A DNA stretch of 64,000 bases from Saccharothrix ecbatanensis. Lineage in GTDB: Bacteria; Actinomycetota; Actinomycetes; Mycobacteriales; Pseudonocardiaceae. Of the stretch, positions 15,597-40,785 are shown piece after piece. The position numbers were made by a program, and so were the translations under genes. The notes under the pieces are model-generated. The model was given only the letters and a program-made list of their open reading frames with translations. It searched no databases and was not told the origin of the DNA. Numbering within the stretch: the first letter of the stretch is position 1; each line of letters starts with the position of its first letter. Location: assembly GCF_014205015.1 (NCBI RefSeq), contig NZ_JACHMO010000001.1, positions 7,936,001 to 8,000,000 on the forward strand, written 5' to 3'.

Positions 15597-16468
15597 CGCC
15601 TGACGCACCTGAGGAGCTCGCCGCCGCGCTGGACCGGGTCGGCTACCTGCCGGACGCGGGTATCGCGACGGCGGCCTACCTGGCCCTGCGCATGCACCGC
15701 CCGTTGTTCTGCGAAGGCGAGCCGGGCACCGGCAAGACGTCCCTCGCGGTGGCGCTCGCGGAGGCGCTCGCCCTGCCGTTGATCCGCCTCCAGTGTCACG
15801 AGGGCATCGACGCGACCCAAGCCCTCTACGACTGGGACTTCCCCCGTCAGCTCCTGCACCTCCGCGCCCTCGAAGCGGCCGGCCCGGTGGACGCGGAGGC
15901 AGCCGAGGCGTCCCTCTACGCCCGCCGCTTCCTCCTCGCCCGCCCGCTGCTCCAAGCCCTCGAAGACGCGCCGTGCGTGCTGCTGGTCGACGAGGTGGAC
16001 CGGGCGGACGACGAGTTCGAGGCGTTCCTGCTGGAGGTGCTGGGCGAGAACTCGGTGACGATCCCCGAACTCGGCCGCGTCACCGCGAAGACCCCGCCGC
16101 TGGTCGTGCTGACCTCGAACCGCACCCGCGAGGTGCACGACGCCCTCAAGCGCCGCTGCCTCTACCACTGGCTGGAGCACCCCGACCTGGCCCGCGAGGT
16201 GGCGATCCTGCGGCGGCGGCTGCCCGGCGTCACGGAACGCCTCGCGCACCAGGTCGCGTCAGCCGTGCGGCGGTTGCGCGAACTCGACCTGCTCAAGCCG
16301 CCGGGCGTCGCCGAGTCCCTCGATTGGGCGGAAGCCCTGCTCACCCTGGGCCGCGCCGAACTGGACGCGGAAACCGCGGCCACCACGCTCGGTGCCGTCC
16401 TGAAGTACCGCGAGGACGCACAACGTGCCCTTTCTTCCGGCATCCTATGTCCTGCTGAATCGCTTTGA
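15593..16468 (+). CDS. MoxR-type AAA+ ATPase (CoxD-like)
   Basis: This 291-aa AAA+ chaperone has Walker A GEPGTGKTS (about residues 41-49), Walker B VLLVDEVDRADDEF (about 124-137) and sensor 1 VVLTSNRTREV. MoxR ATPases next to a VWA protein and xdhC mature molybdenum hydroxylases by inserting metal or sulfur (CoxD/CoxE role). Its expected partner, the VWA gene, lies 7.7 kb downstream; a reverse-strand defence island separates them. The last residues (SSGILCPAESL) look unlike the usual MoxR tail and may derive from the insertion. Start GTG 15593 overlaps the araC stop. The stop codon abuts the island's terminal stop codon with no spacer. Confidence 0.88.
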   Translation: MTPDAPEELAAALDRVGYLPDAGIATAAYLALRMHRPLFCEGEPGTGKTSLAVALAEALALPLIRLQCHEGIDATQALYDWDFPRQLLHLRALEAAGPVDAEAAEASLYARRFLLARPLLQALEDAPCVLLVDEVDRADDEFEAFLLEVLGENSVTIPELGRVTAKTPPLVVLTSNRTREVHDALKRRCLYHWLEHPDLAREVAILRRRLPGVTERLAHQVASAVRRLRELDLLKPPGVAESLDWAEALLTLGRAELDAETAATTLGAVLKYREDAQRALSSGILCPAESL

Positions 16469-17401
16469 TTATCGCGCCTCCTGATATGACGGCGTGTTCC
16501 GAAAACCTGGCGTGGTAAACGTGACGTCCATCTGGAGATTTGCCGGCTGCCAAGCCGCAGGAGGGGGTTTGATCAGGGCGGACTCGTTCCAGGTGAAGTT
16601 CGCCGAGTCAGGGGGGATCAGTGCGGAGAGTGTGTCGTGGGTCAATTTGAGAACGTCCTCGATGTGGGATGCATCCAGTTGGTCGGCGAGCATTGCGGAA
16701 CTCGCGAAAACGACCTGAATCAGTTCCCACTCTTTGCCGTGGTAACGACTCCTGTCGAATTCATTGCGAGTCAGATGAAACGCGCCGCGAGTCGTTGTGC
16801 CAGCCGCCTTCACTTCGATCCGTCTGATCACAGGCACCTGGGCCTCGATGTCGTATCCATACTTGTCGGATATGCGGGCCACGTGCACGGGTCGCGCACC
16901 GGCCCTCACCAGTGCGGCGAGCACGAACAGTTCGGCCGCATCGCCGATCGCCTTCCTCAGCGGCTCCTGGAACGGGGATGTCAGATCTGCACGGGCACCG
17001 AGGAGAACAGCGTCCAGATCAGGTTCGAGCCAACTGAGCGCGACCAGGTCTTCTTCGGGGATGTACTCACGTGCCACACCGGCGGAGGTGACCGCGACTC
17101 GCAGCCACAACGGAGGGTCGGCGGCCAGCAGGAGCCGGGCAATGCCGTGCAGTGTTGCCCGGTCAGCTGATTCGGACAAGCTGAGCAATCGCGACTCGAC
17201 GACTATCCCACCGCCCGCCGACCAAGCCAACCTGAGTTTGAACAGGACGTCGACCGGCTTTGCGAGATCGACCTCGGCGGACAGGAACGACCGGGGAGCC
17301 CTGGCCGCATCAATCCACTCGTCGACCTCGCGTCGCCGCTTGACGCGTGCCGCACGAGCCAGCAGGAAAACGCCGAACGCGAAGCCGTGCCTAGGGAGCA
17401 T
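16469..17401 (-). CDS. DUF3883-type protein with PD-(D/E)XK nuclease motifs (defence island)
   Basis: The C-terminal half of this 310-aa protein reads GDAAELFVLAALVRAGARP, then YGYDIEAQ, then RRIEVKAAG and FHLTRNEFDRSRYHG. This is the E...D...ExK series of the DUF3883 (NO VEIN C-terminal) branch of PD-(D/E)XK enzymes, so DNA cleavage or binding is likely. The N-terminal 160 residues are unassigned. I prefer ATG 17401 (MLPRHGFAF); ATG 17416 adds 5 residues and a longer overlap with the helicase gene. It is the last gene of the island operon; its TAA directly touches the moxR TGA. Overlap with the SNF2 gene suggests that the products act together. Confidence 0.78.
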   Translation of the reverse strand: MLPRHGFAFGVFLLARAARVKRRREVDEWIDAARAPRSFLSAEVDLAKPVDVLFKLRLAWSAGGGIVVESRLLSLSESADRATLHGIARLLLAADPPLWLRVAVTSAGVAREYIPEEDLVALSWLEPDLDAVLLGARADLTSPFQEPLRKAIGDAAELFVLAALVRAGARPVHVARISDKYGYDIEAQVPVIRRIEVKAAGTTTRGAFHLTRNEFDRSRYHGKEWELIQVVFASSAMLADQLDASHIEDVLKLTHDTLSALIPPDSANFTWNESALIKPPPAAWQPANLQMDVTFTTPGFRNTPSYQEAR

Positions 17402-19289
17402 GCGCCACCGCTTCACGGAGGTGGGCGATGACGGCCCGCTCGTCGTCGGCGAAAGCAGGCTGGTTCAACTGTCCGGCGTCGGGTTCGGGCAACGAAACCC
17501 GGACGAGTCCCGAATCATCCATCAACCGCCCGAGAGCCTGGACTTTCTCCCGCAACCTGCTGTCGACCGTCTGATCGATGGTGCCTTCGCTCAGCAGCAG
17601 GGTGAAACGCGTCATCACGTCATCACGCAGCCCCAAGCGGTGGATGCGGTCCTGGCTCTGGAGGAAGTGACCGGCGTTGAAGCTCCGGTCGAGGTACACG
17701 GCGTGGTGGCACCAGTGATGCAGGCTGACGCCTTCCCCGCACGCGGCCGGGTTGGCAAGCAACACGTGGCAGTCGTCCTCATGCCGGAATCGGTCGAGTT
17801 CCTGTTCGCGCGTGATCGCGTTCGCCGGTGCGCCGTCTTCCGGAGGAACACCACCGTGCACCACCGCCGGGTTGTGCTCCTCGAGAAGGAGGGCGAGCGA
17901 GCGGAGGTTGCGCACGAACGTCGACCAGACGATCACCTTCTGCTTCCTCGAAGCAGCCTCGGCCACGATCTCCCGCACCCGGTCGTATTTCCAAGGCACC
18001 TCGTACTCGCGGTACCGCTGCAACAGTTCGGCGAGCGGCTCGCCCTTTCGGATGTCCAGCGGAGGGTGCGCGAAGCCCTGGTCGTCATTCGCTTCGGATC
18101 CGGCGACCAGGAGCATCGGGTTGGTCGCCGCCTCCATCAGGTACATCACGATCCGGCCGAGCCGGTCGAATTTCCGGCGGGACGACGTGTCCAGGGCAAG
18201 GTGGCCTCGGTAGCGGCCGGCCAGGGCGTCGTAGATCGCCTTCTGGAGGGGGCGCATGGTGGCGAGTTCCACCGAGAAGGTCGTGGGTGGAAGGTCGAGT
18301 TTCGCCTTCGGGGTGCGGACGAAATAGCGGGCGATGGCGTTACCCGTCGCTTGCAGCACGTGGTCTTCGCGGCCATCACGCTCGACGTAGACGCTGGGTG
18401 GAAGGATTTGCCGGTCCTGGCCGGGATAGAGGAACCGCATCAGCGCTACGAGGTCGAAGGCTCCCTGTGGTGCGGGAGTGCCGGTGAGCACGTCGCGGCG
18501 TCGAGCCGCATACGCCAAGTCCAGCACCGCTCGGCCATGGACCCCGAGTTCGCCGCGCTTGATGCGGTGCGCCTCGTCGAGGACGACTTGAGTCGGCCGT
18601 CGGGCGACGAACTCCCGGATGCGGTCGTAGTCGGACGCGACGCGGTTGTAGTTGGTGAGGACGATATCCACGTCGTCCGGGATGAACGAGTTCGGCCCTG
18701 AGTGCACGGCGATGGTCGGAGCAGGCTCCAGACAGGCCGCCGCATCCTCCTTCCAGGTGTGGAAGGCGGCAATCGGGGCGATGACGAGCAGTTGCGCGAC
18801 CCGCCCCCGCGCCCGCCCGAGGGCGAAGTTGGCCAGGGCCACGCTGGTCTTGCCCGCGCCAGGCACTGAGAAGTCGGCTCCGTGCGGCAACCGGACGATG
18901 GTCGCCAGATTCTCCAACTGGAACGGCATCAGCTCGCGCCGCGTGAAGCCTGCGGCCCGCAGCTGCTCCGGCAGGGATGAGATGTCGTAGGTCTCCATCG
19001 GCGGGATCGCTCGCTCGCGTTCCAAGCGATCTGTTTTGAGCAGCTGCAGTTGATCCCGCAGCGTCGGACCGAGTTCGACGCTCTCTCCGAACAGACGTCG
19101 TATCTCCTGGATGGCGGCCAGCTCGGCGAAGAAGACGTCGACGCGCACGTCGATCCGGTTCAACGAGCCGCCGACGATGCCCCGCGAGAAAGCCTCCTGC
19201 AACCTTGCCCACGCGCCCGGATTGGCATCGGGCCCGGCGTTCGCGACGACTACCGGCCGGCCCCGCTGGTACAGCTCAAACTTGATCAA
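17391..19289 (-). CDS. SNF2-family helicase/translocase (defence island)
   Basis: This 632-aa superfamily 2 ATPase has motif Q/I at RRELMPFQLENLATIVRL and the Walker A ADFSVPGAGKTSVALANF (about residues 137-154). The DEAH box is VVLDEAHRIKRG (about 220-231), motif III is VLTGTPAPQG, and helicase C-domain motifs are VIVWSTFVRN and FLQSQDRIHRLG (motif VI). The N-terminal 110 residues and C-terminal 80 are unassigned. There is no nuclease domain within it; the following DUF3883 gene could supply one. The ATG overlaps the ParB-like gene (ATGA). Such ATPases translocate on DNA in several defence systems; target choice cannot be read from sequence. Confidence 0.9.
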   Translation of the reverse strand: MIKFELYQRGRPVVVANAGPDANPGAWARLQEAFSRGIVGGSLNRIDVRVDVFFAELAAIQEIRRLFGESVELGPTLRDQLQLLKTDRLERERAIPPMETYDISSLPEQLRAAGFTRRELMPFQLENLATIVRLPHGADFSVPGAGKTSVALANFALGRARGRVAQLLVIAPIAAFHTWKEDAAACLEPAPTIAVHSGPNSFIPDDVDIVLTNYNRVASDYDRIREFVARRPTQVVLDEAHRIKRGELGVHGRAVLDLAYAARRRDVLTGTPAPQGAFDLVALMRFLYPGQDRQILPPSVYVERDGREDHVLQATGNAIARYFVRTPKAKLDLPPTTFSVELATMRPLQKAIYDALAGRYRGHLALDTSSRRKFDRLGRIVMYLMEAATNPMLLVAGSEANDDQGFAHPPLDIRKGEPLAELLQRYREYEVPWKYDRVREIVAEAASRKQKVIVWSTFVRNLRSLALLLEEHNPAVVHGGVPPEDGAPANAITREQELDRFRHEDDCHVLLANPAACGEGVSLHHWCHHAVYLDRSFNAGHFLQSQDRIHRLGLRDDVMTRFTLLLSEGTIDQTVDSRLREKVQALGRLMDDSGLVRVSLPEPDAGQLNQPAFADDERAVIAHLREAVAHAP

Positions 19290-20599
19290 GGAAGCTCCTT
19301 GATCTCACGCGTCAACGCCTCCAGCTCGTCGAGCTTCGCCGTCAGGGCGCTCTCGTCCCAGCTCGGGTAGTCGCGAGCTTTCGGCAAGGCGATGAGCACG
19401 CGCTTCAGCTCCGCGATAGCCTTGTCGACGCGCGTTATCGGAGCCTTGACCGCGGTCTGGTCGCGTTCCTGTTCCTCGGCTTCTTCCGCCGCGTTGGTGA
19501 TGGCGTTGTTGAGGCTTTCGAGCACATCACGTGTCAGCACCCGCTCGCCGCCGGCAAGCTCGATGGTCTCCTCGGGCCTCTTCTGAGCCAGAAGCCCCAG
19601 CACGCCGTCCAGAGGTGAGGCGGTGCTCGGCGGGCCGACGAGATCGCCGATAAGGTCGTCGTCCACAGGATCTTCCGTCTGCTGCTCGACCGTCTCCAGC
19701 ACGAGCCGCAACGAGGCATCCCCCTCGACCTCACGCCTGACGAGCTCAGCCGCGTCATCCCGACGCAGGTTGCGCAGCTTGCGGTACTGCACGTTGGCCA
19801 GAGTGCCGAGGAAGTAGGCCGACCGAACGCTGGCAGCCTCGGCCTGGGGCTTGTTCTTGATGTGCTTGGCCAATTCGTCGAACGCCGACTCGTTGTCGTT
19901 GAAGTCGATGTGCAGACGCGCGCCGTTGGACAAGGACACGAGCTGGTGGACCTGTTGGAGCTTCTCGTGCAGCGAACGGACGCCGCTCGCGTCCCGGTGC
20001 ATCCGCTGGGCCACCTTCAGGTAGTCCTTGCCCTCCCGGTCGAACAGCTCCTCGATGAGCAGAGCCTCGTTGATCCACGAGTACTCCTGCTTGAAGTCGC
20101 GAGCCACTTGGAGCTCGGCCTCAAGGTCCACCAGCTCGTTCTCGGTTGCGTCCTGCGGCAGCACGAGACATTGCACGTACTGGGCCTTGAGGTGTCGGTC
20201 CTCGTACAACGCGCGTAGGGCTGCGGTCCGCCGGTTCCCGTTGATCAGGATGCCGTCGGCGGTGATGATCGCCGGCTCTTGTTGGCCGCGTTCCTTCAGA
20301 TCGTCCTTGAGGGAGTCGAAACCCTCCTGGCCGGCCAGAATCCGGTACTGCGCCTCCTGCGCCTCCTCGCCGAGCGGATCGGCCGTGAAGAGGTCAGGGC
20401 GACCCTTGGCGTGGATCTCGCGCCGTTGTTCGGCGGTGGTCCGGTGGTTCCTGGTGGAGAACCGGACCCAACTCACCTCTACTTCGACGCGCGGGAGCTC
20501 CTTGTCCGACCGGGGCCAGGCCGGCACGGCAACGTATCCCCTCTTGTCGCGTGCTTCGAGAAAGGCCGCCCGATCCTGGTCAAGTGCTGGATTCGGCAC
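19286..20599 (-). CDS. ParB/Srx-like DNA-binding protein (defence island)
   Basis: This 437-aa protein carries a ParB-like nucleotide-binding fold in its N-terminal third. EGFDSLKDDLKERGQQEPAI is followed by DGILINGNRRTAALRALYED, the GNRR box being equivalent to GERR/GEHRR in ParB. ParB-like domains can hydrolyse CTP or ATP or nick DNA. The middle (AQRMHRDASGVRSLHEKLQQ) resembles the helix-turn-helix after the ParB box. The C-terminus (about 370-437) is rich in Glu/Ala/Leu and probably coiled coil. It is 4 bp from the upstream gene and overlaps the helicase gene, so it is part of one operon. ParB here is not with parA, so plasmid partitioning is unlikely. Confidence 0.78.
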   Translation of the reverse strand: MPNPALDQDRAAFLEARDKRGYVAVPAWPRSDKELPRVEVEVSWVRFSTRNHRTTAEQRREIHAKGRPDLFTADPLGEEAQEAQYRILAGQEGFDSLKDDLKERGQQEPAIITADGILINGNRRTAALRALYEDRHLKAQYVQCLVLPQDATENELVDLEAELQVARDFKQEYSWINEALLIEELFDREGKDYLKVAQRMHRDASGVRSLHEKLQQVHQLVSLSNGARLHIDFNDNESAFDELAKHIKNKPQAEAASVRSAYFLGTLANVQYRKLRNLRRDDAAELVRREVEGDASLRLVLETVEQQTEDPVDDDLIGDLVGPPSTASPLDGVLGLLAQKRPEETIELAGGERVLTRDVLESLNNAITNAAEEAEEQERDQTAVKAPITRVDKAIAELKRVLIALPKARDYPSWDESALTAKLDELEALTREIKELP

Positions 20600-20603
20600 C
20601 GTG

Positions 20604-21446
20604 TCAACTCCTGTAGGTGGTGGATCGGAACGGGCCGAACCGTCCGGTGACGATGGTCTTCACGGCGCCTGCTCTCTGCTGGAAGCCGATGTGGCCGGTG
20701 AAGGTCGCCGCCTTCTCTGCGGTGATGCCGAAGAGGCTCAACAGCAGCTCGGGGAACACCCGGACCTGATGGCCCTTCCAGTTCCAGCCGTCCTCCGTCT
20801 CGTCATCGTCGGGCATGACGTAGACGCACGGAGGAGGTACGGACTGCCCCCCGATGTCAATCGAGTTGGACATCTTGGGACAGATGCGGTGCGGCGTGCC
20901 GCACAGCTCGTTGTGGAAGATGACGCCGTCGAGTCGACCAGGGCGCTCGGAGAAAAACCGCTTGCGCAACCGGGTGACGCCTTTGGTCACATGTTCGCCG
21001 GGGTGGTAGCGCATGCTGGAGCACAGCCACCACAGGTAGGTTTCGTCGGCCCACTTCGGCACTTCCCACGCCACGCTGCTGTGGTGGCCGTCCGGACAGC
21101 CCTTCTGGATCACCGCGATCTCGCCCCGGCCCTCGATGCTCAGCCGGTACACCGTCTCCTCGCCGGCCACGGGGGTGGTGAAGGCTCCGATCAGGCCTTT
21201 GTTCAGCATGGCTTCGAACAGGCCTTTCAGGAACTCGCGCCGCTCCACGTTATTCGCACTGACACGCCCCCGAATCGCCTCAATAGCCATCGGCAAAGCG
21301 CTACGGAATTCGGCTTCGGTAAGGCCGCGGCGGCTGAGGTAGTCAGCCTCTCCGGCGAGTTCGTTGATAAGTCTGGACACCTTGTCGACGATCTCCGGCG
21401 GAGGTGCGCCCGCATGACGACAGGGCGTCGCTTCCTCCGGGCTCAT
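20604..21446 (-). CDS. Unrecognised 280-aa protein of the defence island
   Basis: I do not recognise this family. Visible features are an N-terminal helical segment (PPEIVDKVSRLINELAGEA), a possible winged helix near residues 60-105 (FLKGLFEAMLNKGLIGAF, EETVYRLSIEG), then GEIAVIQKGCPDGHHSSVAW. Next come a Trp-rich stretch (KWADETYLWWLCSSM) and GRLDGVIFHNELCGTPHRIC. Paired Cys/His residues (C-P-D-G-H-H, ELCGTPHRICPK) could bind metal, and D-G-V-I-F-H-N-E is loosely reminiscent of restriction nucleases. It is 4 bp upstream of the ParB-like gene and 144 bp downstream of vsr, so it probably opens the second part of the island transcript. Function unknown. Confidence 0.7.
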   Translation of the reverse strand: MSPEEATPCRHAGAPPPEIVDKVSRLINELAGEADYLSRRGLTEAEFRSALPMAIEAIRGRVSANNVERREFLKGLFEAMLNKGLIGAFTTPVAGEETVYRLSIEGRGEIAVIQKGCPDGHHSSVAWEVPKWADETYLWWLCSSMRYHPGEHVTKGVTRLRKRFFSERPGRLDGVIFHNELCGTPHRICPKMSNSIDIGGQSVPPPCVYVMPDDDETEDGWNWKGHQVRVFPELLLSLFGITAEKAATFTGHIGFQQRAGAVKTIVTGRFGPFRSTTYRS

Positions 21447-21590
21447 GCGCCATCGCCCCTGCGTGCAATCAGCTCGACTCTTACGGATCCCATGCGTAAT
21501 GCCTTCACAACGGCAACATACTCCAGACGTCGAGACCGTGACGTCGACAAGGCGACGATTATCAGTTGATCGGGAGCCGATGCTCTTTTG
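21447..21590. promoter_or_regulatory. Internal gap in the defence island, possible promoter
   Basis: The 144-bp gap between vsr and the 280-aa gene is the only sizeable space in the island. By eye it is less G+C-rich than the surroundings (for example TTATCAGTTGATCGG, CTCTTTTGTTAG). It may hold a separate promoter for the four distal genes; no operator is recognised. Confidence 0.35.
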
Positions 21591-22022
21591 TTAGCCGCTG
21601 CGGTCGGGTCGCCGCTTGACCTGCTCCGCGATCGCTTCCGCCGCGACGTCGAGATCGTCGTGTTCCCACACCACGGTCAGCGTCCAGCCGGCCTCGGCCA
21701 GGCGCGCCGCGGTGTCCGCGTCCCGACGCATGTTGCGCTGCACTTTCTCCGACCAGTAGCCGCTATTGGAGGACGGCGCCCGGTAGTGCTGCGGGCATCC
21801 GTGCCAGAAGCACCCGCGGATCTCGACGGCGACTTTGGCCCTGCGGAAGACGATGTCGACCGTTCGGCGGACGTCGGGCAGCGGTCGGGTGCACACCCGG
21901 TAGCGCAGACCCATCGCGTACAGGGCCTTGCGGAGGCGCAACTCGGGTTTGGTGTCGCGGCTCCGGTTCGCCTGCATGGACTTGCGAGTCGCTCCACTGG
22001 TCGCCCAGGACGCTTCCGGCAT
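21591..22022 (-). CDS. vsr: Very short patch repair (Vsr) mismatch endonuclease
   Basis: This 143-aa Vsr nickase cuts beside T:G mismatches that arise when 5-methylcytosine deaminates. The diagnostic order is present: MQANRSRDTKPELRLRKAL near the N-terminus, GLRYRVCTRPLPDVRRTVDI with the catalytic Asp, then VAVEIRGCFWHGCPQH, which includes the structural zinc Cys/His ligands. Downstream is WSEKVQRNMRRDADTAARL. I chose ATG 22022, 19 bp after the restriction gene stop; ATG 22073 would add 17 residues and overlap that gene. Location beside a cytosine methyltransferase is the expected partnership. Confidence 0.93.
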   Translation of the reverse strand: MPEASWATSGATRKSMQANRSRDTKPELRLRKALYAMGLRYRVCTRPLPDVRRTVDIVFRRAKVAVEIRGCFWHGCPQHYRAPSSNSGYWSEKVQRNMRRDADTAARLAEAGWTLTVVWEHDDLDVAAEAIAEQVKRRPDRSG

Positions 22023-22041
22023 GCTGAACACCCTAGCCGGG

Positions 22042-22824
22042 TCACTCGAAGTCGAGTTCGAGCTCGCCGCCATCCGGGGTGTCGGTGTCCGAGGGCGTGA
22101 GCGGCCGTCGGACGCTGCCGACGAGGCCTTCCATGTGGATCACATCGGCATCGGGGGCGGAACGCCCTTCCGCCTCGGCGAGCCGGGTGGCGGCGAGGTA
22201 GGCGAGTCGGACCGCCTGGATGACCAGCACCCGCCGCAGACCTGTAGACACCTCACCCCGCTCGTGCGCGACCGCGGCCAGGCGGGAGACCGTTTCGGCC
22301 CGGCGTGCGATCCGGACGTCGGGGTGGCCGCGTTCCTCCCGGGTCTGGTCGCTGATCAGGGCGAACCGCTTGGACGGCGGCAGGTCGCCGAGATCGGAGA
22401 CCGGAGGGATCTTCTCGTTGAGGATTGCCTTGAATCGGCTCTCCTCGATGGCGAGGGTGTAGGCGTTGTACTCGACGCTGTCGAGGTGTCGTCTGGCCTG
22501 CTTGTTCGCGGCGGGGATGCCCTCGTACTCCCAAAGAGGCCAGAGCTGCATCTCGGCGACCTCGAAGACGTCCAGGATGCGCATCGCCACAGCATCGGTC
22601 CGCTGATTGCTCAGGTGTCGGCGAACGCGGGCGCGGAGTCGCTCGTTGGTCTGACCGACGTAGATCGGCTCGCCTTCGTAGTCGTAGAAAGCGTAACAAC
22701 CCCATTGGGCGTCCGCCCATTTGCGGCCTTGGTCGTCCTTGGTGTCCAAGGCGAGTTCGAGAAGAGCGCGGAAGTCCTGCACGGACTTCGCGGGAAGGCT
22801 TTTCTTCGTGGGTCTCGGAGACAC
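22042..22824 (-). CDS. GIY-YIG restriction endonuclease (Eco29kI-like), probable R protein
   Basis: This 260-aa protein has an N-terminal GIY-YIG nuclease domain. GCYAFYDYEGEPIYVGQT (about residues 42-59) gives the two Tyr of the GIY-YIG pair, LRARVRRHLSNQ (about 63-74) gives the Arg/His, and SVEYNAYTLAIEESRFKAIL followed by NEK gives the Glu and Asn. This is the residue pattern of the Eco29kI/NgoMIII class of type II enzymes, so it is the likely restriction partner of the adjacent methyltransferase (4-bp gap). The C-terminal 110 residues (RRAETVSRLAAVAHERGEV onward) are specific to this protein. The recognition site is not readable; CCGCGG would be the guess by family. Confidence 0.75.
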   Translation of the reverse strand: MSPRPTKKSLPAKSVQDFRALLELALDTKDDQGRKWADAQWGCYAFYDYEGEPIYVGQTNERLRARVRRHLSNQRTDAVAMRILDVFEVAEMQLWPLWEYEGIPAANKQARRHLDSVEYNAYTLAIEESRFKAILNEKIPPVSDLGDLPPSKRFALISDQTREERGHPDVRIARRAETVSRLAAVAHERGEVSTGLRRVLVIQAVRLAYLAATRLAEAEGRSAPDADVIHMEGLVGSVRRPLTPSDTDTPDGGELELDFE

Positions 22825-22828
22825 CCGA

Positions 22829-24031
22829 TCAGGCTCCCACAGCAGCCAATCGCGTGTCCGCGTTTTCGGACGCCAGTTGAGTCAGCGGCATCAGGTAGTG
22901 CTTGCCCAGCCAGGCCACGGCCGGCACGCACACGGCGTCGCCGAACCCGAAGATCAGGTGACCGTCCCGATGCCCGTCGATCATGTAGTCGCCCGCGCCC
23001 ATGAGTCGCGCGTACTCGATCCCCGTCATCCAGCGAACCTTCAGCTCGCCCTTGCCCACCTCGACGACCGCTTGCTTAGACGAGCCGCCACGCGCCGTGC
23101 GCAGGCAACCGGCGATGTCGTCCGAGCGGATCTCCCACTGGGGCTTGCCCTGCCTGGTCCTGCGGTAGGCCGTGCGATGTGTCGTCTTACGCGCCTTGCG
23201 CAGCTTTTCGAGCCGCTCCGATTGGATCGGCGACAGCTGGTTCTCGAAGGAGGCGACACGAATCGGGTCCCACCAGCGGGAATCGGACCCGTCCAAGCGT
23301 TCGACGACCTGTGACAGCGAAATATCGGGCGAGGGCTCGATGTCAGGGAGCAGGTAGCGATGAGTGTCGAGCGATTTGTCGCGGAAGGGGCCTTGCAGCC
23401 ACTCCGGGCGCAGGAGCGGGTTCGCGTCGGGTGTGTCCTTCGGAGGATTGAGCGCTCCGACGACGAACAGGCGCGGACGCGATTGCGGCACGAACCACCG
23501 CGCGTCCAAGGTGAGGACGTCGACGGAGTATCCGAGCTTGTTGAGCTCTTTGATCGCAGCTTTGAGATCTGCGCCGTTGTGGCTGGTGGCCAGCCCGACC
23601 ACGTTCTCCAGGGTGACCACCGGAGGGCGCTGGTCGAGCGGCAGTTCACGGAGGATGCGGGTGAACTGGTAGAACGCGGCGGACCGGGTGCCGCTCAATC
23701 CGAGTCGCGCGCCGGCCAGCGAGACGTCGACGCACGGGGACGACGCCCAAGCGAGCGCCAGTCGACCGGTTGGAAGGCTGTCGGCGTGGACCTCGGCGAT
23801 GTCTTCGAGGACGAACTTGTGCGTGTCCTCGGTGTCCTCGGTGAAGTGCTGCACGTACATGTTGCGCTTCGCCGGTTCGATGTCATTCGACCACGAGACC
23901 CGGAAGCCGGCCTGCTGAAGGCCAAGCCGGGCGAGGCCGATGCCGGCGAAGAACTCCGCTGCGACAGGCTCCGTGGGTTCGAACGGCAACGTCGGCTCGC
24001 TGGCCTGGGCTAGCTTCGACACGGCGCGCAC
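22829..24031 (-). CDS. DNA (cytosine-5) methyltransferase
   Basis: This 400-aa C5-methyltransferase shows motif I AAEFFAGIGLARLGL (about residues 24-38), motif IV ASSPCVDVSLAG with the catalytic Cys (PC then VDVS), motif VI TLENVVG, motif VIII WFVPQSRPRLFVVG and motif X GFGDAVCVPAVAWLG. The region between VIII and IX (about 205-320) is the target recognition domain. It is the first gene of the reverse-strand island; protection of host DNA against the GIY-YIG enzyme is the likely role. Start GTG 24031 is the furthest; GTG 24022 (MSKLAQASEP) is equally plausible and neither has a good Shine-Dalgarno. A CCGCGG hexamer lies about 20 bp upstream (24051). Confidence 0.93.
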   Translation of the reverse strand: MRAVSKLAQASEPTLPFEPTEPVAAEFFAGIGLARLGLQQAGFRVSWSNDIEPAKRNMYVQHFTEDTEDTHKFVLEDIAEVHADSLPTGRLALAWASSPCVDVSLAGARLGLSGTRSAAFYQFTRILRELPLDQRPPVVTLENVVGLATSHNGADLKAAIKELNKLGYSVDVLTLDARWFVPQSRPRLFVVGALNPPKDTPDANPLLRPEWLQGPFRDKSLDTHRYLLPDIEPSPDISLSQVVERLDGSDSRWWDPIRVASFENQLSPIQSERLEKLRKARKTTHRTAYRRTRQGKPQWEIRSDDIAGCLRTARGGSSKQAVVEVGKGELKVRWMTGIEYARLMGAGDYMIDGHRDGHLIFGFGDAVCVPAVAWLGKHYLMPLTQLASENADTRLAAVGA

Positions 24032-24170
24032 TGTACGAAACCTACTCTCTCCGCGGCGAGCCCTTGTCGGCAGGTCGCACTCTTGTTCGATCTTATGGGC
24101 ATTTGGCGGACATGTGCGCTGACATCGACACGATCATGCGTAAGTGTGGTGTCCAGAGCACAATCGTGGG

Positions 24171-34923: not shown

Positions 34924-36834
34924 TCAGGCCGGGCCGATCCAGCCGAACGGGTCCTCGTCGCCGCCTCGCGCCGCGTAGAGGACGTCGATGCGCGGCATCT
35001 CCGCCGGTTCCGGCTCGGTCATCACTTCCAGCACGTAGGGCAGGCGTTCGTCCCGCACCACCCGCAGCGCCTTCACCAGCTCACCCGCGAGCGCCGACCG
35101 CGCGGACACCTGCGCACCCCGCTCCACCCCGAACGACGCGGCGATCCGCACGAAGTCGAGCTTCGGCGGCGGATCGATCCTCAGGTAGTCGGCGGGACCC
35201 GAGGGCTTCCAGCCGTACGTCGCCTCCACCACCTCCATCCCCTTGATCAACGTCTGGTACCGGTGGTTGTTGGTGATGATGTAGAGGATCGGCATCGAGA
35301 ACTTCGCCGCCGTCCACCACGCGTGCGGGTAGAACAGCGCCGACCCGTCACCCACGATGTTGACCACGGTCGCGCCGTCGCCGAGCGCGAGGTGGGTGCC
35401 GAGGGCGGCCGGCATGGAGAACCCGAGCGACCCGCCCTGCGCCTCGAAGTAGTCGGTCGGCGCGCGGAAGTCGACGTACTGCTGCAACGCGGCCGAGTCC
35501 GAGACCGCCTCGTTGACCAGCACCAACCGGCCGATCACCTCGCCGTTCGCCCCGCTGTGGCCACGTTGCAGGTCACGCAGCGCGCGGGCGATGTCCGAAC
35601 CGTGGATCACCTCGTCGGCCCGGTCCGACCGGCCCGCGTAGTCCTCGAAACGCTGCGTCCGGGCGTGCGACAACTGCCCGAGCTCTTCCCGCCGCTTCCG
35701 GGCACGATCCTCGTCGAACGTCCGGTCGCCGGGGATCTTCTCCAGGATCTTCGGCAACGTCACCTTGATGTCGCCGAGCACGGCCGCTTCGCCGAAGTGG
35801 TTCTTCCCGATCTGCCACGGGTCGTTGTGCAGGTACACCTGTCGGACGCCCTTGGGAATGAGCGGCCCGGTCGCCCAGTCGAACACCACGAGTTGTGCTT
35901 GGGCGTTGAACCCGCAGAAGAAAGCGACGTCGTGCACGCCCAGCTTGGCCCGCATCCCCTCCTGCGTGCCGGGCAATTCCCCCTGCCATTCCGGCCGGTC
36001 GTTGGGGTAGTTCATGTAACTGCTCAACTGTTCGGTGTAGACGGGCGCGCCGAGCTTCTTCGCCAGGGCTTCCACTTCGTCCCACGCGTTCGCGGCGCCG
36101 ACACCGTCACCCGCGACGATCACCGGGGCGTTGGCGTCCGCGAGGATTTTCGCCAGTTTCGCCACTTCGTCCAGGTCGCCCAGGAATTTCCGCCCGATCC
36201 TGGTGAACCGGCCGTCGCCGCCGTCGGTCGGCTGCACGGGCCGGATCAGGAACTCCCACGGGATCGACAGGAACACAGGGCCCATCGGCGGCGCCATGGC
36301 GACCTTCAACGCCCGCTGCATCGCCATCGCCAACTCGTTCGGCCCACGCACCTCGTACGACCACTTGGTGTACTGCTCGGCCACCTTGACCAGGTCGGAT
36401 GCCAGCAGCGGCTCCTGCAGCAGCAGGTTGCTGTGCTGCTGGCCGCAGAGCACCACGAGCGGAACGTGCGACTTCGCCGCGTTGAACAGGTTCCCGAGCG
36501 CGTGGCCGATGCCCGGCGTGACGTGCAGCTCCACGACGCCCGGGACGTCCTTCGCGCGGGCGTATCCCATGGCCGCGCCGAGCGCGATGTTCTCGTGCAG
36601 GCAGGGCACGTACTCGATGTTGTTCTCGGGCACGTCGGTGCCGTCGATCAGCGGGATCTCGTTCGTGCCCGGCACACCGAAGATGCGATCGACATTCGCA
36701 TTCCGCAAATACCGGAATATCACATCCCGACCCAGCGTCAGTCCCGAGCCGACATCCCGGACGGCCTGCACGGGCACCGCCCCGTCGGGTGCCGCGGGCT
36801 CCTGGACGGACACCGGTTCTTCGAGTTGCGTCAC
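34924..36834 (-). CDS. Thiamine-diphosphate-dependent enzyme (acetolactate synthase/benzoylformate decarboxylase-like)
   Basis: This 636-aa ThDP enzyme has the PYR domain with catalytic Glu (CLHENIALGAAMGYAR, about residues 78-93), a central domain (VIVAGDGVGAANAWDEVEAL, about 226-245) and the PP domain with the GDG-(x)~25-NN cofactor motif (NIVGDGSALFYPHAW to ITNNHRYQT, about 483-520). Its overall pattern is nearest to benzoylformate/indolepyruvate decarboxylases, so decarboxylation of an aromatic 2-oxoacid is plausible, but ligase activity cannot be excluded. It is about 80 aa longer than benzoylformate decarboxylase, partly because of a 30-residue N-terminal extension. Start ATG 36834 has GGATCC-type weak context. 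It is the first gene of a TPP enzyme, amine oxidase, menC row. Confidence 0.85.
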   Translation of the reverse strand: MTQLEEPVSVQEPAAPDGAVPVQAVRDVGSGLTLGRDVIFRYLRNANVDRIFGVPGTNEIPLIDGTDVPENNIEYVPCLHENIALGAAMGYARAKDVPGVVELHVTPGIGHALGNLFNAAKSHVPLVVLCGQQHSNLLLQEPLLASDLVKVAEQYTKWSYEVRGPNELAMAMQRALKVAMAPPMGPVFLSIPWEFLIRPVQPTDGGDGRFTRIGRKFLGDLDEVAKLAKILADANAPVIVAGDGVGAANAWDEVEALAKKLGAPVYTEQLSSYMNYPNDRPEWQGELPGTQEGMRAKLGVHDVAFFCGFNAQAQLVVFDWATGPLIPKGVRQVYLHNDPWQIGKNHFGEAAVLGDIKVTLPKILEKIPGDRTFDEDRARKRREELGQLSHARTQRFEDYAGRSDRADEVIHGSDIARALRDLQRGHSGANGEVIGRLVLVNEAVSDSAALQQYVDFRAPTDYFEAQGGSLGFSMPAALGTHLALGDGATVVNIVGDGSALFYPHAWWTAAKFSMPILYIITNNHRYQTLIKGMEVVEATYGWKPSGPADYLRIDPPPKLDFVRIAASFGVERGAQVSARSALAGELVKALRVVRDERLPYVLEVMTEPEPAEMPRIDVLYAARGGDEDPFGWIGPA

Positions 36835-37037
36835 AACGGATCCCTTTCACATCGGGGTGCTCCCTTTGTGGAAGGTATCCGGGAAGAACTGCCGCGAAAG
36901 TGCCGTCCCCCGCAAATCACGGCCTACCACCCGGTGGTGGAAACGGGATCGCGCTGGGTGTCCGGAATGCGGTGGCGTCGCCGCCGGAATTCACGACAGC
37001 CCAGTCAAGTGGACCCCTGGAGGTGACAGGCGGATCC

Positions 37038-37694
37038 CTAGTGCAACGGGTCGAGGGAGGCGACGCGGCGCAGCGCGCTGTCGGTCAGGTCCGGGTCGGA
37101 CTCCTCCACGATCTCCTCCGCGACGATCCGCAACGCGTCCTCGAACTGGTCCAGCCGCCGGTCCAGTTCGGCGAGCTCACGGGTCGTCTCGGCGATCGCG
37201 GCGGCCAGACCGGGCCGGTTCTCGGCCCGCCGCAACGCGTCCCGCACGACCAGGCTGTCCCGCAACGCCACCAGCGCCCGCCACAGCAGCAGCTCCACCT
37301 GGGCGACCCGCCGTGCTTCCAGGCCGCGCAACGCGTCGAAGTGCACGCACAGCCGGCCGGCCCGACGGCGTTGGACCGGATCGGTGAACTGCCCGCAGTG
37401 CACGACATCCCGCGCGCTGCCCGCCAGCACCACGTCCCAGTCGGCTAATCGGACCGGTAGGACGGCGACCAACGCCAAGACGAGCAACGGCACGCAGGCC
37501 AGCCCGACCCACCACCACTTCGGCGCCGTCACCCCCAACACCCCGGCCAGCACGCCGGCCGACACGACCGCGAGAACGGCGACAGGCCGGATCCGGTCCC
37601 GTCTGGCACGGCGGGTGGCGGCACGTCGAGCCGGCCCCACCTCGGCTTCCGGACGCCACATCCACCAGCGGGGTAACGGCACCACCTGGTTCAT
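37038..37694 (-). CDS. Hypothetical membrane protein with two helices
   Basis: I do not recognise this 218-aa protein. It has an Arg-rich N-terminus (RRAATRRARRDRIRP), two adjacent helices (VAVLAVVSAGVLAGVLGV and WWWVGLACVPLLVLALVAVL, about residues 42-80), then a soluble part with ARDVVHCGQFTDP and a predicted coiled coil (TTRELAELDRRLDQFEDALR, about 170-190). ATG 37694 (MNQVVPLPRW) is preferred; ATG 37703 adds 3 residues. It is followed by a 10-bp gap to the DUF397 stop, on the same strand. Confidence 0.65.
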   Translation of the reverse strand: MNQVVPLPRWWMWRPEAEVGPARRAATRRARRDRIRPVAVLAVVSAGVLAGVLGVTAPKWWWVGLACVPLLVLALVAVLPVRLADWDVVLAGSARDVVHCGQFTDPVQRRRAGRLCVHFDALRGLEARRVAQVELLLWRALVALRDSLVVRDALRRAENRPGLAAAIAETTRELAELDRRLDQFEDALRIVAEEIVEESDPDLTDSALRRVASLDPLH

Positions 37695-37703
37695 GTCCAC
37701 CAA

Positions 37704-37871
37704 TCAGCGGGTCGCGAGGAACGCCCTGAACGCTTTGGGGGAGAAGGAAAGCACAGGGCTCGCGTCACCCAACTTGGAGTCCCGCACACCGACGACGGTG
37801 GGGGAGGACCCGATCTCGACACAGCCGTTCTGAGCTTCGCTGTAGGACGACTTACGCCACCGGTACTTCAT
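37704..37871 (-). CDS. DUF397 domain protein
   Basis: This 55-aa protein is a single DUF397 domain: KYRWRKSSYSEAQNGCVEIG, then VGVRDSKLGDASPVLSFSP and AFRAFL. DUF397 proteins are small partners of XRE-DUF5753 regulators in actinomycetes and often modulate development or act like toxin-antitoxin pairs. The start is ATG 37871, 5 bp after the regulator stop, so the two form an operon. Gene length is normal. Confidence 0.9.
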   Translation of the reverse strand: MKYRWRKSSYSEAQNGCVEIGSSPTVVGVRDSKLGDASPVLSFSPKAFRAFLATR

Positions 37872-37876
37872 CGAGA

Positions 37877-38746
37877 TCACAAGTCCTTCGCAGTCTGCTT
37901 GACCCAGCGGGCGAAGTCTTCCGGCTTGTCCGCTTGGACCCGCAGGCGGGTCAACGCGTCCCGGTACAGCATTACCTGCGCGGGCTCCTCGTAGTAGACG
38001 CCCTTCGCCCTGGTTTCGGTGTACACGCAACCGGGGTCATGCTCAAGCTCGTTTGGGAACGTCAGCACTGTGAAGGCGCCTTCGGCGCCGGTGTGCGCAC
38101 CGGCGGTCGCGGGCAGAACCTGCATCTCGATGTTCGGGTGCTCGCGCAGTTCCACCAGGTGTTCCAACTGAGCGTTGAGGATCGCCGGACTGCCGACCCG
38201 CAGGCGTAGCGCGGCCTCCGAGATCACCGCCCAGACCTGGGGAGCGTCTTCCTGGTCGAGCACCTCGTCCTGGCGCGCCATCCGCAGCTCTACCCGCTTC
38301 TCCACTTCGGTGGCGGGGAACTCGGGGCGGCCACCCCGGATGATCGCGCGGGCGTAGTCAGGTGTCTGGAACAGGCCGGGAACCACGATGGCGTCCCAGC
38401 TCTCGATCTTCACCGCCGACGACTCCAGCCCCAGGAAGAGCTTGAAGTACTCCGGCACCGCCGAGTCATCGAAGCCGATCCACCAGTCACGGCCCTTCTT
38501 CGCGCGCAGCCGCAAGTCGAGGAAGAATTCCGCCCGTTCCGGCACGCCGTACAGCTCCAGCAACCGCTCCAACTCCAGCGGTTTCGGCAGGGAGCGGCCG
38601 GTCTCCACATGGCCGATCGCGGGCACCGAGCCCTTGATCGCCGCTGCCGCCTCCTCCCGGCTGATGCTCCGGTCCTCGCGCAGTTTGCGCAGCTCGAAGG
38701 CGATCCAGCGCTTGAGCACGGTCGGGCTGCTGGACGAGGTCACCAC
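37877..38746 (-). CDS. XRE-family regulator with DUF5753 domain
   Basis: This 289-aa protein has an N-terminal helix-turn-helix (WIAFELRKLREDRSISREEA, then VPAIGHVETGRSLPKPLELE, residues about 14-62) and a C-terminal DUF5753 ligand/effector domain (about 95-280, with WDAIVVPGLFQTPDYARAII and VYYEEPAQVMLYRDAL). Start GTG 38746 has GAGGAG 6 nt upstream. It is divergent from a small gene at 38874 and co-transcribed with DUF397. This pair type is abundant in Pseudonocardiales and usually has an unknown signal. Confidence 0.93.
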   Translation of the reverse strand: MVTSSSSPTVLKRWIAFELRKLREDRSISREEAAAAIKGSVPAIGHVETGRSLPKPLELERLLELYGVPERAEFFLDLRLRAKKGRDWWIGFDDSAVPEYFKLFLGLESSAVKIESWDAIVVPGLFQTPDYARAIIRGGRPEFPATEVEKRVELRMARQDEVLDQEDAPQVWAVISEAALRLRVGSPAILNAQLEHLVELREHPNIEMQVLPATAGAHTGAEGAFTVLTFPNELEHDPGCVYTETRAKGVYYEEPAQVMLYRDALTRLRVQADKPEDFARWVKQTAKDL

Positions 38747-38873
38747 GGACGTCTCCTCACTCGAATGAGCTATTTCAGACGTAGGATGCTCAGAACTATC
38801 GTCATCGACGATAGGTTGAGCGAACCGATGGTGATCAGATTACCGGCTCTACGGCTGAGGGAGAGGTGTCCAC

Positions 38874-39131
38874 GTGTTCACGAATGGTGGAATCGCGGTC
38901 GACTCGTGGGTTCGAATCGAGAAGGGCTGCGCGATCGAGTGCGACGTGGTGGGTGACGAAGCCCAGTTCACCTTCGGCGGCCGGCGGGGCGGTGAGCTGA
39001 ACATGATCGTCACCGAGGACGGCTTGGAGCAGGTGGTCGAGCACTTCCAGCGAGCGCTCGACCAGTTCCGGGCCAACCCGGCGCCAACGGCGGCGTCGAC
39101 GCCGCCGTCGACCAACGGCAGCGTCAGCTGA
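38874..39131 (+). CDS. Small hypothetical protein (85 aa)
   Basis: This 85-aa acidic protein (MFTNGGIAVDSWVRIEKGCA start, ELNMIVTEDGLEQVVEHFQR centre, Pro/Thr-rich tail) has no family I can name. GTG 38874 follows GAGGGAGAGGTGTC, a good Shine-Dalgarno context. It is divergent from the XRE gene and may be its target. The last 8 bp overlap the 3' end of the convergent helicase gene. Confidence 0.55.
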   Translation: MFTNGGIAVDSWVRIEKGCAIECDVVGDEAQFTFGGRRGGELNMIVTEDGLEQVVEHFQRALDQFRANPAPTAASTPPSTNGSVS

Positions 39132-40785
39132 TCTCGGGCAGCTTCGGGCCTAGCAGGTCGTCCGCGTCCACGATCTTGTACGCGTACCCCTGCTCGGCGA
39201 GGAACCGCTGTCGGTGCGCCGCGTAGTCCGTGTCCAGCGTGTCCCTCGACACCACCGAGTAGAAGTGCGCCTGCCGCCCGTCACCCTTGGGCCGCAACAG
39301 CCGACCGAGCCGCTGCGCCTCCTCCTGCCGAGACCCGAACGTCCCCGACACCTGCACGGCCACCGACGCCTCGGGCAGGTCGATGGAGAAGTTCGCCACC
39401 TTCGACACCACCAACGTCCGCAGCTCACCGCGCCGGAACTGGTCGAACAGCGCCTCGCGCTCCTTGTTCTTGGTCGATCCCTGGATGATCGGCGCGTTCA
39501 GGGCCTCGCCCAGCGACTCCAACTGGTCCAGGTACGCCCCGATCACCAACGTCGGCTCGCCGGGGTGCCGGTCCAGGATCGCCTGCACCACGGGCAGCTT
39601 CGTCCGCGCCGTGGAGCACAGCTTGTACCGCTCCTCCGGCTCGGAGGTCGCGTACTCCAGGCGTTCGTTGTCGGTCAGCGTCACCCGGACCTCGGTGCAC
39701 TCGGCCGGCGCGATCCAGCCCTGCGCCTCGATGTCCCGCCACGGGACGTCGTACCGCTTCGGCCCGATCAGCGAGAACACGTCGCCTTCCTGGCCGTCCT
39801 CGCGCACCAACGTCGCCGTGAGCCCGAGCCGACGCCGTGACTGGAGGTCCGCGGTCATCCGGAAGACCGGCGCGGGCAGCAGGTGCACCTCGTCGTAGAC
39901 GATCAGGCCCCAGTCCCGCGAGTCGAACAGCTCCAGGTGCCGGTACTCGCCCTTCGACTTGCGGGTGATCACCTGGTACGTCGCGATGGTGACCGGGCGG
40001 ATCTCCTTGCGCTCGCCCGAGTACTCGCCGATCTCGTCCTCGGTCAACGTCGTCCGCGCGACCAGCTCGCGCTTCCACTGGCGTCCGGCGACGGTGTTCG
40101 TCACCAGGATCAACGTGGTCGCGCCCGCCTCGGCCATCGCCGCCGCGCCGACCAGCGTCTTGCCCGCGCCGCACGGCAGCACGACCACGCCCGAACCGCC
40201 CGCCCAGAACGCCCGCGCGGCCAGCCGCTGGTAGTCGCGCAGCTGCCAGCCGTCCTCGACCAGCCCGATGGGGTGGGCCTCGCCGTCGACGTACCCGGCC
40301 AGGTCCTCCGCCGGCCACCCGATCTTGAGCAGCAGCTGCTTGAGCCGGCCGCGTTCGCTCGGGTGCACGACCACGGTGTCGGCGTCGAGCCGGTCGCCGA
40401 GCATCGGCTTGACCTTCTTGTGCCGGAGCACCTCCTCCAGCACCGCGCGGTCCAGTGAGTTCAGGACCAGGCCGTGGGTGGGGTGGTTGGCCAGCTGGAG
40501 CCGGCCGAACCGGCCCATCGTGTCGACCACGTCCACCAGCAGCGGCTGCGGGACGGGGTAGCGGGAGAACCGGACCAGCGCGTCGACCACCTGCTCGGCG
40601 TCGTGGCCGGCGGCGCGCGCGTTCCAGAGCGCCAGCGGCGTGACCCGGTAGGTGTGGATGTGCTCGGGGGCACGTTCGAGCTCGGCGAACGGCGCGATCG
40701 CGGTGCGCGCGTCGTCCGACAGCGGGTGCTCGACCTCCAGCAGCAGGGTCTTGTCCGACTGGACGATCAATGGGCCGTCGGTCAC
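39124..40785 (-). CDS. XPB-type DNA repair helicase
   Basis: This 553-aa SF2 helicase of the XPB/Rad25 type has an N-terminal damage-recognition domain (about 1-180) and motif I VVVLPCGAGKTLVGAAAMAE (about 197-216). Further motifs are II IVYDEVHLLPAP (a DEVH box), III LGLTATLVREDGQEG with the RED motif, and VI RQEEAQRLGRLLRPKGDG. It unwinds DNA in nucleotide-excision-type repair. In M. tuberculosis the corresponding gene is Rv0861c, followed by Rv0862c; the counterpart of the latter lies here at 50681-52936. Start ATG 40785 (MTDGPLIVQSDKT). Confidence 0.94.
   Translation of the reverse strand: MTDGPLIVQSDKTLLLEVEHPLSDDARTAIAPFAELERAPEHIHTYRVTPLALWNARAAGHDAEQVVDALVRFSRYPVPQPLLVDVVDTMGRFGRLQLANHPTHGLVLNSLDRAVLEEVLRHKKVKPMLGDRLDADTVVVHPSERGRLKQLLLKIGWPAEDLAGYVDGEAHPIGLVEDGWQLRDYQRLAARAFWAGGSGVVVLPCGAGKTLVGAAAMAEAGATTLILVTNTVAGRQWKRELVARTTLTEDEIGEYSGERKEIRPVTIATYQVITRKSKGEYRHLELFDSRDWGLIVYDEVHLLPAPVFRMTADLQSRRRLGLTATLVREDGQEGDVFSLIGPKRYDVPWRDIEAQGWIAPAECTEVRVTLTDNERLEYATSEPEERYKLCSTARTKLPVVQAILDRHPGEPTLVIGAYLDQLESLGEALNAPIIQGSTKNKEREALFDQFRRGELRTLVVSKVANFSIDLPEASVAVQVSGTFGSRQEEAQRLGRLLRPKGDGRQAHFYSVVSRDTLDTDYAAHRQRFLAEQGYAYKIVDADDLLGPKLPEIS

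Follow-up and report, generated by a model that had tools for sequence, protein, structure and literature searches.

The 64,000-nucleotide stretch of Saccharothrix ecbatanensis DNA analysed here (hereafter the window) carries, on the minus strand at 16469..24031, an island of seven genes in which a type II restriction-modification (R-M) set with the mismatch endonuclease Vsr is followed by a four-gene module encoding a degenerate restriction-enzyme homologue (R280), a ParB-like protein, a SNF2-family ATPase, and a NOV_C/DUF3883 protein. The system is real, conserved, and mobile, and would represent a variant of ATP-assisted R-M rather than an isolated oddity. We interpret the whole as a mobile composite R-M island, in which the ordinary R-M-Vsr (R-M-V) set would be joined by a second restriction machine that depends on ATP and heeds the same methyl mark, a reading to which we give a probability of about 0.48.

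All seven open reading frames (ORFs) were found in one direction and at the coordinates given by an earlier reading of the sequence alone (the sequence-only reading), and their products were compared with Pfam, NCBIfam, PADLOC, and PHROG models (E-values in brackets). The first gene encodes a C5-cytosine DNA methyltransferase (MTase; 22829..24031, minus strand, as for all that follow; 400 amino acids [aa]; PF00145, 1.4e-37; PADLOC MTase_II, 1.2e-150), which would protect host sites; the second a GIY-YIG nuclease (22042..22824; 260 aa; PF01541, 2.2e-5), likely an ordinary type II restriction enzyme and a swappable partner; and the third Vsr, a T:G mismatch nicking endonuclease (21591..22073; 160 aa; PF03852, 1.3e-18; TIGR00632, 1.1e-36). 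A C5-MTase, a candidate restriction nuclease, and Vsr thus stand in one operon, as in type II R-M-V triads. The module consists of R280 (20604..21446; 280 aa), the ParB-like protein (19286..20599; 437 aa), the SNF2-family ATPase (17391..19289; 632 aa; PF00176, 7.7e-16), a putative double-stranded DNA motor, and the NOV_C/DUF3883 protein (16469..17416; 315 aa; PF13020, 8.7e-8), a PD-(D/E)XK nuclease proposed as the cutter. The NOV_C coordinates use the first in-frame start, and a start 15 bases later gives a better match to its relatives. The genes are closely packed, with a 4-bp gap between MTase and GIY-YIG, a 32-bp overlap between GIY-YIG and Vsr, a 144-bp gap between Vsr and R280, a 4-bp gap between R280 and ParB, and overlaps of 4 bp between ParB and SNF2 and of 26 bp between SNF2 and NOV_C.

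Using an alignment of 19 ParB-like proteins to scan genomes, one for each species, we identified 33 loci, 29 of which are close (43–66% identity; L002–L030) and 4 distant. R280 lies directly upstream of ParB in all 29 close loci, SNF2 directly downstream in the 28 with contig room (L030 ends inside ParB), and NOV_C next after SNF2 in 25 of the 26 with room, the copy of L008 being cut by the contig end. Four loci have no NOV_C: in L022, L027, and L030 the contig stops before the gene could appear, and only L017 genuinely lacks it. With script-chosen starts, the distances range from −4 to +10 bp between R280 and ParB and from −14 to +3 bp, mostly −4, between ParB and SNF2. The sequence-only reading had grouped the four distal genes, and they do travel together; because the R280-ParB-SNF2 order recurs in the genomes of other species (29 loci), the arrangement of the island goes beyond chance. 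The hosts belong to Actinomycetota, Alpha-, Beta-, and Gammaproteobacteria, with one Verrucomicrobiales metagenome-assembled genome, and ParB-like matches over 80% of the protein were found on four plasmids, three of which were examined for their neighbourhood. Of 7999 proteins scored in a protein database, 422 were ParB-like relatives at E 0.001, the closest named homologues being from Saccharothrix (72% identical).

In the sampled genomes the module is rare, occurring in 2 of the 297 from the window's family and in 1 of the 396 from its phylum (the window's own genome). Such a rare and patchy spread, like the carriage on plasmids and the redundancy of nucleases beside a single MTase, would also suit a guard or addiction device, restrained as long as sites are methylated and attacking the DNA of host or invader once methylation breaks down or the first-line enzyme is blocked by an inhibitor. 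The anatomy of the island gives no distinction between such a device and ordinary restriction, and no toxin-type domain is among the listed matches of the seven proteins; we consider this explanation unlikely.

The module is linked to C5-METHYLTRANSFERASE: a C5-MTase is found within 10 kb in 27 of the 29 close loci, and the remaining two, L008 and L022, are on contigs with 2.7 and 2.1 kb left after ParB. Twenty-four of the 29 also have Vsr. Because the MTase occurs on either side of the module (upstream in 15 loci, downstream in 12) and in either orientation (same strand in 18, opposite in 9), this linkage is more than operon inheritance. By simple arithmetic, the six C5-methylase stretches in the 9.69 Mb of the window's own genome correspond to a chance of about 1.4% per 22-kb stretch. 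The partner MTases fall into two clades, 49–63% and 31–37% identical to the window's enzyme, which share a motif, CLRT..GGSS[KR]Q, present in the window's MTase and in all 30 others aligned (27 loci and three plasmids). This motif closes the target-recognition region, and there cross-clade identity (38–43%) is as high as in the first core region (39–44%), as against only 22–30% over the whole recognition region. A specificity common to both clades is plausible. In Nocardia tenerifensis (L010), the module and the GIY-YIG protein are of actinobacterial type and the MTase belongs to the other clade; this proteobacterial-type MTase and a Vsr stand beside the module at L010:4173-7076, with a transposase-like ORF (by eye) between, an arrangement that looks like a replacement of the MTase.

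R280, left as an unknown protein by the sequence-only reading, appears instead to be a homologue of type II restriction enzymes (PADLOC REase_II, PDLC03501, 4.1e-23) that has lost an acid of the catalytic motif. It had no Pfam match, and matched an unnamed PHROG at 1.7e-24. We aligned 32 module copies (the window, the 29 loci, and two plasmids) and seven homologues from outside the module, of which three (L028, L029, and L075) come from near a module and four (L086–L089) were available with flanks of 1.3 kb. The separate homologues all have D99, and six have D or E two residues before K115 (A in L029), whereas the module copies, all of which keep K115, have V/I at position 99 and I/V at position 113 without exception (32/32), so that none has a complete D...(D/E)xK motif. 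The two groups are about 25% identical and their alignment depends on the KG anchor; 28 of the 32 module copies have D97, which might substitute for the first acid. The AlphaFold2 model of R280 is fair (predicted local distance difference test score 86) and its fold comparison weak. The separate relatives lie directly after a C5-MTase on the four plasmids examined and on pRL11, and the partner MTases of L086–L089, four in all, also have the shared motif.

The other three products bear the features of a clamp, a motor, and a nuclease. The ParB-like protein consists of a ParB/Srx domain followed by a DNA-binding domain, as in the ParB/Noc/KorB clamps, and its structural model follows DNA-binding ParB, KorB, and Noc over 199 residues that cover both the N-terminal and the DNA-binding domains. 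It conserves an L-x-NGNRR box; its Pfam ddrB-ParB match (9.4e-4) is under that model's cut-off, and PADLOC gave no ParB match at 0.001. In the SNF2 protein, FSVPGAGKT, DEAHR, and QDRIHR are invariant in the 15 sequences aligned (the window and 14 of 28 loci), and in NOV_C, GYD189 and E201-x-K203 are invariant in all 21 (the window and 20 of 25 loci), a pattern that amounts, at the sequence level, to a complete PD-(D/E)XK active site.

These features also bear on whether the ParB-like protein, rather than NOV_C, is the effector, as a nickase or a nucleotide-consuming enzyme regulated by SNF2 and NOV_C. Nuclease or NTPase activity of ParB/Srx proteins is discussed in two reports (PMC12839542, PMC10853773), and the ParB-SNF2 pair is retained where NOV_C is missing, in L017 and in the sister loci described below; the long agreement with DNA-binding ParB, KorB, and Noc favours a clamp, however, and the active site of NOV_C is complete, which makes this possibility quite unlikely.

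In the composite-island reading, the C5-MTase would mark one class of sites in the host, Vsr would limit mutation at the methylated sites, and the GIY-YIG protein would serve as a conventional restriction enzyme, directed at the marked site and needing no ATP. R280, its catalytic motif lost, would recognise the same site in unmethylated form; the ParB-like protein would then close on the DNA at this site as a clamp gated by a nucleoside triphosphate, SNF2 would move along the DNA or remodel the complex, and NOV_C would cut. Acting in this order as a four-protein complex, the module would restrict phage DNA. In its anatomy, a reader without a cutter, a clamp, a motor, a cutter, and a methyl mark make up the parts of an ATP-dependent restriction enzyme distributed over four genes.

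A different role for the same proteins is suggested by the variety of nucleases that accompany them. A second candidate nuclease was found in 24 of the 29 close loci, and its family varies: GIY-YIG in 14; DUF4928 adjoining the MTase in five (by Pfam in L004, L017, and L018, and by similarity to those in L016 and L021); a DUF4928-SduA (Shedu) fusion in one (L009); an R280 homologue adjoining the MTase in two (L028 and L029); and an HNH_2 ORF beyond NOV_C in two (L006 and L026). L005 has an HNH ORF in addition to GIY-YIG. No partner was recognised in L019 and L020 by Pfam on chosen ORFs only, 15 ORFs of the loci having been run in this survey, and in L008, L022, and L030 the contig is too short for a call. 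One DUF4928 protein and one R280 homologue matched PADLOC type II restriction enzymes at 6.8e-75 and 2.3e-120, respectively, and the GIY-YIG residues G42, Y44, Y55-V-G57, R66, R69, H70, E118, and N136 are invariant in the 14 proteins aligned (the window and 13 of the 14 loci). Two plasmids carry more than one such enzyme: a Methylocystis plasmid has MTase, R280 homologue, and GIY-YIG consecutively, and a Kozakia plasmid has MTase, GIY-YIG, and a split R280 homologue in addition to R280-ParB-SNF2-NOV_C. The split homologue is annotated as two short ORFs (L077:15675-16533). In the fusion of L009 (14123-15595, minus strand), the N-terminal part of DUF4928 is joined to the C-terminal domain of Shedu SduA, near the module and an MTase.

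The chief rival explanation is accordingly one of end processing, in which the module, instead of selecting its own targets, loads onto DNA ends or nicks that the partner type II enzyme (GIY-YIG, DUF4928, or R280-like) has produced, and the ParB clamp and SNF2 spread NOV_C along the DNA, finishing invader DNA that has already been cut. Besides the swappable nuclease, it would account for the related ParB-SNF2 pairs that adjoin R-M systems of different types, including types I and III, as a general aid would. Against it stand L019 and L020, with the scope given above, and the presence of a restriction-enzyme homologue as a fixed member of the module, which it leaves unexplained. In L019 the order is vsr-MTase-R280-ParB-SNF2-NOV_C with no other nuclease recognised (ORFs viewed, one scanned), so that the module may suffice alone. 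We hold end processing to be doubtful as the main function, and retain the composite-island reading.

The association of ParB and SNF2 with R-M extends well beyond the close relatives, and this recurrent link is the most interesting part of our results. A distant ParB was found in 18 further genomes of the 297, always adjoined by a SNF2 of the same subfamily. Sixteen of them have a C5-MTase no more than 4.6 kb away, and 16 have Vsr no more than 5.7 kb away (as two fragments in G043); neither was found nearby in G101 and G151. These 18 genomes all come from one family and are not independent. NOV_C had no match in L058–L062. L060 has an NgoMIV-type enzyme adjoining the MTase, and in L060–L062 a protein of about 230–260 aa precedes ParB, with a weak winged-helix match in one. 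This family (L060:8293-8982, L061:7870-8655, and L062:7889-8587) is perhaps the site reader that replaces R280 in the sister group.

Further afield, we found ParB-SNF2-NOV_C, an EcoO109I-type enzyme, and an N4/N6 MTase consecutively on an archaeal (Cenarchaeum) contig; an apparent D12-type MTase (by eye) directly before ParB and then SNF2 on a Bacteroidota contig; C5-MTase, ParB, a PLD-SNF2 protein, a MutH-fold protein, and Vsr on a Lactiplantibacillus plasmid; type III Mod-Res, its end overlapping ParB, followed by SNF2 on a Lactococcus plasmid; and, on an Enterococcus lactis plasmid, type I HsdS-HsdR, 0.55 kb, an 815-aa protein, ParB, and SNF2. The 815-aa protein (L082:4498-6945), between HsdR and the ParB-SNF2 pair, had no Pfam or PADLOC match. 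The proteins of these pairs are related: NFSVPG[AS]GKT and DE[AVS]H were found in all ten SNF2 proteins tested (the window's variant being DFSVPGAGKT), which score 157–474 bits on the window-family profile, and seven ParB proteins score 87–456 bits on a wide profile built from eleven others.

We tentatively propose, with less confidence than for the island itself, that the ParB-like protein and this SNF2 subfamily (Walker A [ND]FSVPG[AS]GKT) would constitute a general, undescribed R-M plug-in, a clamp and motor whose nuclease is either a separate NOV_C or a fused PLD. Coupled to type I, II, and III systems of bacteria and archaea, it would answer the recognition of a single unmethylated site with processive destruction of the DNA as a whole; in the window's branch, a dead restriction enzyme would have been recruited as the plug-in's own site reader. 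Several observations weigh against such generality. Two Exiguobacterium plasmids carry ParB-SNF2 without a listed R-M gene in the stretch (the pairs adjoin a large protein, which in the one scanned has bacterial-Ig repeats); no MTase was found beside the pair of a Streptomyces albidoflavus plasmid or of Paracoccus, with queries that comprised only two C5 proteins; and L032 had no SNF2 match. On the Streptomyces albidoflavus plasmid, a weak NOV_C-like match (1.2e-7; L080:10538-10930), located where no ORF is listed, stands right after SNF2, and no R280 was found.

If these proposals are true, some ordinary type II systems have behind them an ATP-driven machine with a ParB clamp at its core, a class known from chromosome and plasmid partition; two fields would be linked, genes labelled 'hypothetical', 'ParB', or 'DEAD/DEAH helicase' next to R-M would gain a meaning, and the module would offer a test case for a dead restriction enzyme serving as a specificity subunit. 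They also suggest that gene transfer in actinomycetes may still meet barriers once the obvious restriction enzyme is gone, and the module may be an overlooked part of the bacterial cutting of foreign DNA.

The island is flanked by a moxR-like AAA gene and a coxE-type VWA gene, and its GC content is 64–66%, compared with about 70–73% in the flanks. Homology to three empty congeners stops at 16434-16440 and restarts at 24156, the congeners having a gap of 21–27 bp, which sets the extent of the insertion at 16441..24155 (no strand assigned). Among 17 same-genus genomes searched, the full coxE locus was found in 11 (fragments only in G010, none in five); nine of these have moxR next to coxE and an empty site, and in two the site is filled. 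In G002 it holds MTase-GIY-Vsr alone (85, 84, and 78% identical), with moxR directly after, and in G008 the same triad with a 311-aa ORF. The triad and the four-gene module are thus separable cassettes. The same spot might suggest that an R-M-V triad and an unrelated defence system share a hotspot and are neighbours by chance. This is very improbable and strongly disfavoured, given that in 27 of 29 loci, from several phyla, the module has a C5-MTase with the common motif beside it, and that a C5-MTase adjoins the sister ParB-SNF2 pair in 16 of 18 genomes. The sequence-only reading is to that extent corrected: the island is better understood as an R-M family with a probable ATP-dependent arm than as a triad next to an unrelated system, since the MTase is missing from only two close loci, both on short contigs.

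The junction itself appears as a repeated landing place, seen empty, with MTase-GIY-Vsr, with the triad and the 311-aa ORF, or with the whole island. The 311-aa ORF (L063:1383-2318, minus strand), which had no Pfam match over the cut-off and no PADLOC match, occupies the module's place beside the same triad and is a candidate alternative effector. A stretch of about 42 bases from the start of coxE recurs just after moxR in G008, which suggests a duplication on insertion. Elsewhere in the window, a second stretch of lower GC (about 67%) at 35001-40000 may be another acquired block.

The sequence-only reading could not name the combination, nor do PADLOC models assign the set to any named system; the DISARM, BREX, Zorya, and Druantia markers that it reported as absent are likewise not among the listed PADLOC matches of the island proteins. 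DISARM resembles the island in pairing an MTase (DrmMII, 2.2e-20) with an SNF2-like helicase, but differs in that no DrmB or DrmC is among the listed matches of the island proteins (for the MTase, the best 25 of 48) and that DrmA is matched only weakly, by the helicase (2.5e-4); the DrmD match is also weak (PADLOC, 7.6e-8; NCBIfam, 29 bits vs a cut-off of 610). For BREX/Pgl, neither PglZ nor BrxC is among the listed matches of the seven island and three flanking proteins, and these ten gave no ZorA or ZorB match, the similarity to the Zorya helicase ZorD (3.3e-18) reaching 25.9 bits vs an NCBIfam cut-off of 1500. The MTase matches DruM2 of Druantia type II at 3e-100, with no DruE, DruF, or DruG among the listed matches of the island proteins. 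PADLOC TmtA (Tiamat) matches the NOV_C/DUF3883-type C-terminal region (9.2e-8) over only about 90 residues that end a model of 1655 positions.

In the literature searched, which left most subscription and bioRxiv-only work outside, we recognised no description of a ParB/SNF2/DUF3883/MTase set. Parts of the set have been reported: DUF3883 as a restriction-fold domain attached to SNF2, and HEPN contexts in which ParB lies close to MTases (PMC3710099), and an AAA ATPase, Vsr, DUF4928, and C5-MTase found together (PMC9035990). MORC/paraMORC operons likewise bring a C5-MTase, Vsr, a SWI2/SNF2 helicase, and restriction-fold nucleases into one neighbourhood, but they centre on a GHKL ATPase, none of which was matched in the island with its ParB-like protein, and ParB has no occurrence in the main text (PMC2292703). 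The BREX-related systems combine an MTase, a SWI2/SNF2 helicase, and a PD-(D/E)XK or HKD effector in a proposed R-M-like defence; they differ by an N6-MTase, TUDOR domains, and other subunits, with ParB, in the accessible text, only in GmrSD- or DndB-type contexts (PMC12839542). A PbeA-type N-terminal region heads the distant Lactiplantibacillus SNF2 (PADLOC, 5e-67, residues 2–220), whereas the archaeal PbeABCD system is phosphorothioate-based, and the main text of the paper contains neither ParB nor SNF2 (PMC6459918).

PLD, carried by the same Lactiplantibacillus protein, had no Pfam match in the seven island proteins. The MTase of CglI/NgoAVII systems is a C5 enzyme, and Vsr can accompany it. 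R.CglI-type proteins carry PLD (PMC6459918), and these systems resemble the island as R-M with separate helicase-like ATPase and nuclease subunits and NTP-dependent cutting from a recognised site (PMC5737866, PMC4267653). They have one nuclease and one DEAD-family ATPase, whereas the island has a ParB-like protein, an SNF2 ATPase, NOV_C, and a degenerate restriction-enzyme homologue.

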